From an uncultured Roseobacter sp. (GTDB taxonomy: Bacteria > Pseudomonadota > Alphaproteobacteria > Rhodobacterales > Rhodobacteraceae): a stretch of 64,000 nucleotides of DNA. This document shows positions 55,591 to 57,320 of this stretch, one piece after another. Position numbers and translations under genes: made by a program. The notes beneath the pieces were generated by a model. The model was not told the origin of the DNA, made no database searches, and was given only the letters and a program-made list of their open reading frames with translations. Within the stretch, counting starts at the first letter, position 1. Each line of letters begins with the position of its first letter. The DNA is taken from assembly GCA_947488305.1 (NCBI GenBank), contig CANKZM010000003.1, positions 434,001-498,000 on the forward strand, in the 5' to 3' direction.

Positions 55591-55615
55591 CTTAATTTTC
55601 AACCTTTTACCCCAT
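55591..55615 (+). promoter_or_regulatory. RpoH-like promoter for the DUF1127/hairpin transcript
   Basis: CTTAAT (55591-55596), 13 bases, then CCCCAT (55610-55615) closely resembles the heat-shock sigma consensus CTTGAA-N13/14-CCCCAT. The -35 element lies within one arm of an inverted repeat ATTAAGC (55571-55577) / GCTTAAT (55590-55596). Homologous transcripts in Rhodobacter are under RpoHI/RpoHII control, which supports the reading. Confidence 0.5.
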
Positions 55616-55716
55616 GCAATTGCTGCATGGCAGCATTGCTACAGAAGTTATTGTGCACGCGCAGCAATTCCCTAAGTATGGTGCACAAGAAACGAGTAAT
55701 GAGAGAGCAAGACGTA

Positions 55717-55950
55717 ATGGCATACTATACACAACATCAGACAGGCAGCATCGTCGAACGCCTGCTTGCAGGGTCCGCCTTCGCACTCGAGCGCGCGGCG
55801 GCACGATATGCCCACTATAGAGTTTACAGCGAGTCGCTGTCTGAACTTCGCGCTCTGAGCGACCGTGAATTGGAAGACATCGGATTGCACCGGTCATCCC
55901 TGAAAACAATCGCGCGGCAAGCCGCGGACAGAAGCGTGACCTTGAAATAA
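55717..55950 (+). CDS. DUF1127 protein (CcaF1-like)
   Basis: A 77-residue basic protein whose C-terminal half is the DUF1127 domain: L-S-E-L-R-A-L-S-D-R-E-L-E-D-I-G-L-H-R-S with a following basic helix. Proteins of this type are small stress-related factors; the Rhodobacter sphaeroides homologue CcaF1 is an RNA-binding protein whose 3' region yields CcsR small RNAs. The same arrangement is seen here, with CCTCCTCCC hairpins directly downstream. ATGs at 55681 and 55699 in frame are alternative starts; 55717 fits family length best. The long leader contains a hairpin CCATGCA-N5-TGCATGG (55611-55629). Confidence 0.82.
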   Translation: MAYYTQHQTGSIVERLLAGSAFALERAAARYAHYRVYSESLSELRALSDRELEDIGLHRSSLKTIARQAADRSVTLK

Positions 55951-55993
55951 CGAAACGTTCGGGCGCAACTCCTCCCTTAGCGCCCGCATGTTG

Positions 55994-56028
55994 GCGGCGG
56001 TATCTATCCTCCTCCCAGATATCGCCGC
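55994..56028 (+). ncRNA. CcsR/cuckoo-type hairpin 1 (CCTCCTCCC loop)
   Basis: A 12-bp stem (55994-56005 with 56017-56028, one G-U pair) presents an 11-base loop that ends CCTCCTCCC. It begins 44 bases after the DUF1127 stop. This loop is the defining motif of the CcsR/cuckoo small RNAs of alphaproteobacteria, which bind G-rich targets resembling ribosome-binding sites. Confidence 0.75.
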
Positions 56029-56090
56029 TCACGGACAAAGCGCGCACATCAAGCGCGCACCTGATGACAAAGAGCATCAGGTTCACGAGA

Positions 56091-56124
56091 CAGGCACTTC
56101 ATTCCTCCTCCCTTGGAGTGTCTG
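56091..56124 (+). ncRNA. CcsR/cuckoo-type hairpin 2 (CCTCCTCCC loop)
   Basis: A 10-bp stem (56091-56100 with 56115-56124, two G-U pairs) with a 14-base loop containing CCTCCTCCC. The stem sequence is unrelated to hairpins 1 and 3 while the loop is kept, the pattern expected if only the loop is selected. An additional perfect 8-bp hairpin ACCTGATG/CATCAGGT (56059-56082) separates it from hairpin 1. Confidence 0.75.
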
Positions 56125-56132
56125 CACCAAGG

Positions 56133-56175
56133 CGGTGGCATCTATCCTCCTCCCGGATGCCACCGTCCCTTTATC
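56133..56175 (+). ncRNA. CcsR/cuckoo-type hairpin 3 with terminator tail
   Basis: An 11-bp stem (56133-56143 with 56155-56165) with the same 11-base loop as hairpin 1, followed by a T-rich tail, so it probably also ends the transcript. Together with hairpin 2, only eight bases away, it has the size and two-hairpin form of one cuckoo RNA. Confidence 0.75.
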
Positions 56176-56288
56176 TTTTCTTAACATCTTTAATTTCGGG
56201 CCTTTCTGGCTTAGTCTGCGCCAAAGTGCGGTTGGCCATTGGGCTCCGTGGTTTGTAGTGACACCGTTGCGCCTGAAGGAAGAAACAT

Positions 56289-57320
56289 ATGGTATTGCGT
56301 AACTTTTTTGCCATCGACAATACCGGGCTCACTGTCACATCGAGCCCGAACGGATCGATTGTGGGCGGCCCGATTATCAATAACTCTTCAACACCGGATG
56401 GCACCATCTTCAACTTTGGCGGTGGCACCTTCCGCGAGATCACCGTCGATGACACTGGTGGCGGACGCAACCGGCTGAACGATGACCTGCCGGACGATCA
56501 TGTCGTGGTAGATGGGTCCGGACTTGTGGCTGACGGTGCCGAGATCGAAGGTGAATCCATAATCGTCGTGCGAAAGCTCGACGATCAGGGCAACCCAACA
56601 GGTCCGGAAATCGACCTTTATGTGTTCTCGCAGAACGGTGACTTCAGCGACATCTGGGGTTTTGGCTCCAGCGATCCTCTGGAAACCGGCGCGAACTACG
56701 TTAAGGTAGATGGCGATAACGACGGCACGGTGCGGTACAACGACATCGTTGCCTGCTTTACCGCCGGCACTCTGATTGACACACCGCAAGGACCCGTCCC
56801 GGTTGAGGAGATCGCTGTAGGCGATTTGGTTTGGACGCAAGGATCCGGGCCGCAACCCGTGCGCTGGGTGGGAAGCACGCGCGTCCCCGGGCGTGGCCGC
56901 TTTGCACCGGTGCGTATCGCCGCAGGCGCGTTGGGCAATACGAAAGACCTGCTGGTCTCGCAACAACACCGGATCTGGATTGAAAACGCCACGGCTGAGC
57001 TGCATTTCGGAACCAGCGCGGTATTGGTCGCGGCAAAGCATCTGTCTGGCAGTCCCGGCGTGGAAATCGAGCCAGTCGATGAAGTGCATTACGTGCATTT
57101 CATGTTCGATCAGCACCAGATCGTGCGATCCAGCGGCCTTTTGACCGAGAGTTTCTTTCTGGCTGACCGTTCAATCGCATCGCTGGAGAGCGAGGCACGT
57201 GCGGAGCTCGACGCCTTGTTTCCTGACTTGTCAAAAGGCTTGGCTGGTTTTGGCGCCACCGCTGCGCCCACGTTGACCGCACGCGAGGCCGCCATGATGA
57301 AACACTATCTGGCCGCCTGA
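56289..57320 (+). CDS. Hint-domain protein
   Basis: A 343-residue protein. Residues 1-150 are beta-rich, acidic and repetitive in feel (N-F-G-G-G-T-F, D-D-T-G-G-G, D-G-D-N-D-G-T), possibly a calcium-binding or adhesin-like extracellular part, without a classical signal peptide. From Cys156 a Hint (hedgehog/intein) module follows: A-C-F-T-A-G-T-L-I-D-T-P-x-G-x-V-P-V-E-E-I-x-V-G-D-L-V-W-T, then L-L-V-S-Q-Q-H-R with the block-B-like His. Cys156 could attack the preceding bond and split the protein. Such genes are frequent in roseobacters; role unproven. GAAGGA upstream supports the start. Confidence 0.85.
   Translation: MVLRNFFAIDNTGLTVTSSPNGSIVGGPIINNSSTPDGTIFNFGGGTFREITVDDTGGGRNRLNDDLPDDHVVVDGSGLVADGAEIEGESIIVVRKLDDQGNPTGPEIDLYVFSQNGDFSDIWGFGSSDPLETGANYVKVDGDNDGTVRYNDIVACFTAGTLIDTPQGPVPVEEIAVGDLVWTQGSGPQPVRWVGSTRVPGRGRFAPVRIAAGALGNTKDLLVSQQHRIWIENATAELHFGTSAVLVAAKHLSGSPGVEIEPVDEVHYVHFMFDQHQIVRSSGLLTESFFLADRSIASLESEARAELDALFPDLSKGLAGFGATAAPTLTAREAAMMKHYLAA

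Follow-up and report, generated by a model that had tools for sequence, protein, structure and literature searches.

The window, the whole 64,000-nucleotide stretch of DNA that was analysed, carries on its + strand a DUF1127 gene with a conserved element upstream and an array of hairpins downstream. The gene encodes 77 residues, and its product matched PF06568 with 37.7 bits (E 1.7e-9, cut-off 23.3), in agreement with the initial annotation, which had placed a DUF1127 gene ahead of the hairpins. Compared with its best relatives in the genus, the protein showed 51-61% identity over part of its length. The features of the locus, and one gene found elsewhere in the same genome, are as follows:

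55615-55667, + strand: conserved 53-bp element TGCAATTGCTGCATGGCAGCATTG-N10-TATTGTGCACGCGCAGCAA, a proposed LsrB/VtlR-type operator (genus alignment, pattern scans)
55615-55628, + strand: TGCA-N6-GCAT, the LsrB-site form of the NfeR1 promoter (exact match)
55624-55638, + strand: TGCATGGCAGCATTG, agreeing with the reverse-complemented VtlR motif in 14 of 15 letters (motif comparison)
55651-55679, + strand: proposed -35 TTGTGC (55651-55656) and -10 TAAGTAT (55673-55679) (genus alignment by eye)
55717-55950, + strand: DUF1127 gene, 77 residues plus stop
55954-55992, + strand: hairpin 1, loop with CTCCTCCC at 55969-55976 (fold, pattern search, CcsR1 and ar14 matches)
55993-56029, + strand: hairpin 2, 13 pairs, loop with CCTCCTCCC at 56008-56016 (letter search, fold, Rfam)
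56040-56058, + strand: spacer hairpin C1, GCGCGC arms (fold)
56059-56082, + strand: spacer hairpin C2, ACCTGATG/CATCAGGT arms (fold)
56091-56124, + strand: hairpin 3, loop with CCTCCTCCC at 56104-56112 (letter search, fold, Rfam)
56131-56167, + strand: hairpin 4, 13 pairs, loop with CCTCCTCCC at 56146-56154; with the tail, a proposed terminator
56168-56186, + strand: U-rich tail (sequence, terminator scan)
C3:334362-335264, outside the window, own genome: LsrB-like LysR gene (profile search)

The array begins 3 bases past the DUF1127 stop codon and runs on the same strand through hairpins 1 and 2, two plain hairpins, hairpins 3 and 4 and the U-rich tail. A gene for a Hint-domain protein (PF13403) lies immediately 3' of it on the same strand, at 56289-57317. 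The three CCTCCTCCC loops of the initial annotation were all found where it had placed them, but they are not the full count, as the CTCCTCCC loop of hairpin 1 had been missed. The layout is two close pairs rather than one single hairpin and one pair, and folding gave two further hairpins between the pairs where one had been described. Nor are the stems all unrelated, since the 5' arms of hairpins 2 and 4 are identical in 11 of 13 letters.

We then compared the loop letters and the fold with shuffled sequence. The nonamer CCTCCTCCC occurs three times in the window against 0.50 expected, and 1 of 100 shuffles gives three, a count that ignores the clustering of all three within 147 nt and in predicted loops. 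The 8-mer CTCCTCCC occurs four times against 1.56 expected, and 11 of 100 shuffles also reach four; the fourth loop is therefore carried by its fold and conservation and not by the count. No further CTCCTCCC core was found on either strand of the window, the surroundings of mraZ included, which were of interest because of UpsM. The region 55945-56190 folds with an energy of -101.5 kcal/mol (z -8.68), which none of 200 shuffles equalled. At its end, a terminator scan detected a site at 56155-56168 that, with the U-rich tail, overlaps hairpin 4. The terminator tail ascribed to the last hairpin thus coincides with a terminator-like site, which is weak on its own because 2 such sites occur in the region against 0.7 expected.

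To relatives of the same genus we applied the check that the initial annotation had proposed, a look for loss of the nonamer; each of the 18 genus loci examined has between 3 and 6 exact cores downstream of the same gene, and the array proposal stood. In these loci the loop letters are conserved and the stems covary. For hairpin 4, 98.6% of cells were paired across 17 genus rows (11 distinct), against 31.5 to 60.0% in slid controls. Five of its 13 pairs are altered on both sides, and the covariation score was reached by 0 of 500 shuffles, while further pair types showed no excess (496 of 500 shuffles reach it). One locus with its loop out of register (L037) was left out, and the rows were chosen by the exact core CTCCTCCC, so that the selection of rows accounts in part for the lack of variation in those eight loop columns. 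The spacer between the two pairs is 52-72 nt long and variable in sequence in the genus loci, and it forms at least two hairpins in 15 of the 16 loci folded (z -1.3 to -5.4, mean -3.0), L039 with one hairpin being the exception; L038, with one unit fewer, and L051, whose loop 2 has no exact core, were left out of this folding. These results indicate that the two spacer hairpins are a genus feature and not a local oddity.

Next, we assigned the array to a family. Rfam at gathering scores returned nothing in the window, and a verdict of 'no known family' drawn from that empty scan would have been wrong, as a permissive scan gave both CcsR1 and ar14. Two matches to CcsR1 (RF02791) span its full 83 positions, one at 56087-56171 (48.4 bits, E 3.8e-10) and one at 55952-56033 (36.2 bits, E 1.5e-6), both under its gathering score of 65.3 bits. 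Matches to ar14/NfeR1 (RF02344) scored 42.4 and 40.5 bits, below its gathering score of 58.8. The covariance-model check suggested for this interval thus found CcsR1 in both units, at scores short of the gathering level. The rest of the own genome added one CcsR1 match at E 0.96. All 19 genus genomes have a CcsR1 match, none above the gathering score. Two loci resembling that of Rhodobacter sphaeroides, L031 and L032, each have a first unit above the cut-off (94.1 and 106.2 bits); these are 2 of their 13 CcsR1 matches, the other 11 scoring 39.4 to 56 bits, and the units of the window score similarly to, or slightly below, those sister units. At loose E-values, CcsR1 also matched control genomes (12 of 14 at E <=10, 8 of 14 at E <=1), so weak matches were left out as evidence. 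A search pattern requiring two cores with a spacing of 20-45 nt matched 160 of the 198 family genomes, and its backward control also matches some. The CIN1 type is recognised by CCUCCUCCC in hairpin loops, and here three loops hold the full nonamer and one holds CTCCTCCC.

Taken with the full-length CcsR1 matches, these findings make the CcsR/cuckoo assignment of the initial annotation almost certain. With the fourth loop present, the locus consists of two two-hairpin units, so the further claim of a differing arrangement, perhaps with another processing pattern, is not supported. The locus, with its two CcsR-type units, is an unexceptional example of the known DUF1127/cuckoo-RNA operon type and adds one further CcsR-type locus.

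The own genome holds a second DUF1127 locus (L061) on contig C6, at about 315833-316451, with two overlapping DUF1127 ORFs (56.3 and 15.5 bits), two CTCCTCCC hairpins, an ar14 match of 30.1 bits and the direct repeat CTGCAGTGCAGCA upstream. It is divergent from a LysR gene (168.6 bits to the LysR profile A2 described below), and no LsrB-type element was found there. Its layout is shared by one other genome (G210, L062) and was found by DNA in 2 of the 19 genus genomes.

To describe what lies upstream of the array, we compared the promoter regions. The stretch 55615-55667 is one well-kept block ahead of the DUF1127 gene in the genus alignment. It opens with an exact TGCA-N6-GCAT at 55615-55628, which would stand at -72 if transcription started at 55687; in the NfeR1 promoter, the LysR activator LsrB is reported to have its site, TGCA-N6-GCAT, at -72 to -60 (PMC10746234). 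The VtlR motif is printed as CAATGCAGCCATGCA (PMC12595884), and 55624-55638 is the sole site in the window with at most one mismatch to it. From the A. tumefaciens box GCAT-N3-TG-N3-T (PMC7486931), the element is one letter off (A for T). A sigma-70 consensus scan gave no + strand promoter at the proposed -35 and -10.

The element pattern was present in all 18 loci L034-L051 and in L072 of the nineteenth genome, that is, in 19 of 19 genus genomes; it also occurs in L031, L032 and L053, and is absent from L052. The two-box pattern has a single match in the own genome. A strict form was found in 69 of 198 family genomes (backward control 0), and the own genome misses this form by its last letter only. 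Thirty strict-form loci were taken, 25 with a downstream DUF1127 gene, 25 with at least one core, 24 with both and four with neither (L110, L113, L123 and L125), which look like chance matches. A wider scan of a collection of 84,980 species gave at least 117 stretches with at least 118 elements. Among the matches listed, 99 of 118 elements had 700 nt of downstream sequence, and of these 94 had DUF1127 within 450 nt, 96 a core within 700 nt and 91 both, most element copies having been found by a pattern drawn from DUF1127/loop loci. As controls for the listed elements, the opposite strand and 700 nt of upstream sequence together held 2 cores. By order, 112 of the 117 listed stretches presumably belong to Rhodobacterales, and five are unspecific (L140, L147, L154, L175 and L248).

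The other eight of these 99 listed elements have either a gene without a core (L146, L178 and L181) or cores without a DUF1127 gene found (L151, L192, L201, L225 and L245). The cores of L151, L201, L225 and L245 begin 91-126 nt past the element, and L151 exceeds the ar14 cut-off (59.4 bits). Since these four have loops and no DUF1127 gene was found, the promoter seems able to drive the RNA alone, as for NfeR1. On the reverse strand of L187, two elements stand in tandem at 2550 and 2774; two cores follow the first, and a DUF1127 gene with a single core follows the second. Among 55 elements followed by at least 1.5 kb of sequence, the number of cores no more than 2.5 kb away varied from 0 to 16. 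One locus, L011 of genome G165, has 26 CTCCTCCC cores arranged as repeating groups downstream of a DUF1127 gene (reverse strand, 386-1548), far more than the window's 4, and has no exact TGCA-N6-GCAT box. Neither this promoter element nor an LsrB-like regulator was found reported for this operon in the open-licence literature searched. The element makes it testable what, besides heat-shock sigma factors, activates CcsR/cuckoo RNAs in Rhodobacterales.

We also searched for a regulator that would fit the element. The query profile comprised 11 LysR proteins adjoining trxB, drawn from 30 trxB loci of alphaproteobacterial genomes (alignment A2, with 11 of 13 candidates; L269 was dropped as another LysR, L279 was dropped without a strong reason, and L267 was not matched by the pattern). 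Searched with this profile, the own genome gave 365.9 bits at C3:334362-335225, the next LysR reaching 175.8. The encoded protein is the genome's closest LsrB match over full length, and among solved structures it matches 9HH1 best (245.8 bits, next 110.7), the accession given for the LsrB structure in PMC11975290. As a name from NCBIfam, only distant LysR models came up, all far below their cut-offs. Matches at E <=1e-55 were present in 192 of 198 family genomes, one in each except G114, which has two. PMC11975290 treats VtlR as the same regulator as LsrB, describes it as unique to Rhizobiales and reports it alongside trxB; the occurrence in 192 of 198 genomes questions that printed confinement. 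The gene is not beside trxB in the own genome, trxB being on contig C7 and the LsrB-like gene on C3. The protein also lacks the conserved cysteines C144 and C273 (A. tumefaciens numbers; PMC11975290) and has only one cysteine, at 190, so that LsrB-type redox sensing is not supported. A LysR tree placed the Rhodobacteraceae proteins in one group (98/100) and left orthology unsettled, with several of the own LysR rows on very long branches and an unsure rooting. Because of its position away from trxB, the missing cysteines and the unsettled tree, we call the protein LsrB-like and not LsrB.

Regulator and array were also compared across the family. The two-core pattern was missing from 17 of 23 genomes with a weak or no regulator match versus 21 of 175 with a strong one (Fisher p 9.4e-10), weak meaning a best E above 1e-130, a cut-off picked after seeing the data and uncorrected for kinship. 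Six weak-regulator genomes have the array (G022, G028, G114, G158, G160 and G196); five are incomplete or in hundreds of contigs (G196 is 64% complete). This association is not relied on because of the post hoc cut-off, kinship and the fragmentary genomes. The LsrB-like protein probably acts through 55615-55667, and element and protein together form an exact protein-DNA pair to test.

These elements suggest a course of events, to which we give a probability of roughly 0.6 as a whole, the role of the spacer apart. An LsrB-like LysR protein would bind 55615-55667 and aid RNA polymerase in starting near 55686. A single transcript would then cover the DUF1127 gene and the array and end at hairpin 4. 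By analogy with R. sphaeroides, where RNase E and CcaF1 take part in producing CcsR1-4 from the 3' UTR of the ccaF1 mRNA (PMC8625941, PMC10253847), RNase E, assisted by the DUF1127 protein, may cleave this transcript to give two RNAs, each about 80 nt long and with two hairpins. CcaF1 is reported to bind RNA and Agrobacterium DUF1127 proteins to bind the protein PhoR (PMC12501420), which makes it uncertain that the DUF1127 protein acts as a helper here. As a guess, the pair of spacer hairpins might mark the cleavage site or shield it. The anti-Shine-Dalgarno sequence CUCCUCCC, present in every loop, would pair with purine-rich ribosome-binding sites and block translation, as the loops of NfeR1 silence ntrB at its translation start in S. 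meliloti (PMC10746234).

Another kind of control was considered, in which the same CcsR-type array is activated by RpoHI/RpoHII and the element serves another DNA-binding protein. The sequence CTTAAT-N13-CCCCAT at 55591-55615, which we take to resemble a heat-shock sigma site, was counted in its favour; in the genus alignment, judged by eye, the upstream half of this site is not kept, whereas the element is. In R. sphaeroides, CcsR is reported to be transcribed from an RpoHI/RpoHII promoter (PMC10253847), yet the element also occurs in L031 and L032, the loci with CcsR1 over the cut-off, so that both controls may coexist. Control by RpoHI/RpoHII with an unrelated use of the element appears rather unlikely to us, though it is the strongest competitor of activation by the LsrB-like protein.

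It is improbable that the hairpins act only in cis, stabilising or terminating the 3' end of the DUF1127 mRNA and yielding no small RNAs in trans. Their place immediately behind the gene and the terminator-like hairpin at the end would suit such a role, but conserved loops on covarying stems exceed what a plain stabiliser needs, and the four loci with loops 91-126 nt past the element have no DUF1127 gene found. Chance hairpins in C-rich DNA, a reading that agrees with the absence of any Rfam gathering-score hit, have a negligible probability in view of the fold z-score, the hairpin 4 covariation and the conservation in the 18 genus loci and 19 of 19 CcsR1-matching genus genomes.

Finally, we compared the locus with known systems. 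The ccaF1-CcsR1-4 operon of R. sphaeroides (CIN1-type, RF02791) likewise has a DUF1127 gene, units of two hairpins whose loops show CCUCCUCCC, and a terminator at the end, and the R. sphaeroides-like loci L031 and L032 share the promoter element. It differs in having four units against two in the window, where the first loop reads ACTCCTCCC and both units fall below the RF02791 cut-off, as do 11 of 13 in L031 and L032; the RpoHI/RpoHII control is reported for that operon (PMC10253847). NfeR1/alpha-r14 of rhizobia (RF02344) resembles the array in its several anti-Shine-Dalgarno hairpins and its TGCA-N6-GCAT LysR-activator site at about -72, but it is described as stand-alone with three such loops (PMC10746234), whereas in the window a DUF1127 gene is accompanied by two pairs of loops, four in all. 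The VtlR/LsrB regulon of Brucella, Agrobacterium and Sinorhizobium shares with the locus a motif matching in 14 of 15 letters and, as LysR targets, a small RNA and DUF1127 genes; Brucella VtlR is reported to activate the small RNA AbcR2 and three DUF1127 genes (PMC12595884). There, the small RNA and the DUF1127 genes are separate genes, unlike the presumed single operon of the window, and the LsrB-like gene here lies away from trxB and lacks the two conserved cysteines.

Beyond this locus, it is an even question whether Rhodobacteraceae possess a near-universal, usually single-copy LsrB-like LysR activator with the DUF1127/anti-Shine-Dalgarno RNA operon as its signature target. If true, a LysR switch would free decoys of the ribosome's mRNA-binding tail, with loop number setting the dose, and the NfeR1 of rhizobia and the CcsR of Rhodobacter would represent two branches of a single ancient regulon, a unity that the element makes testable.
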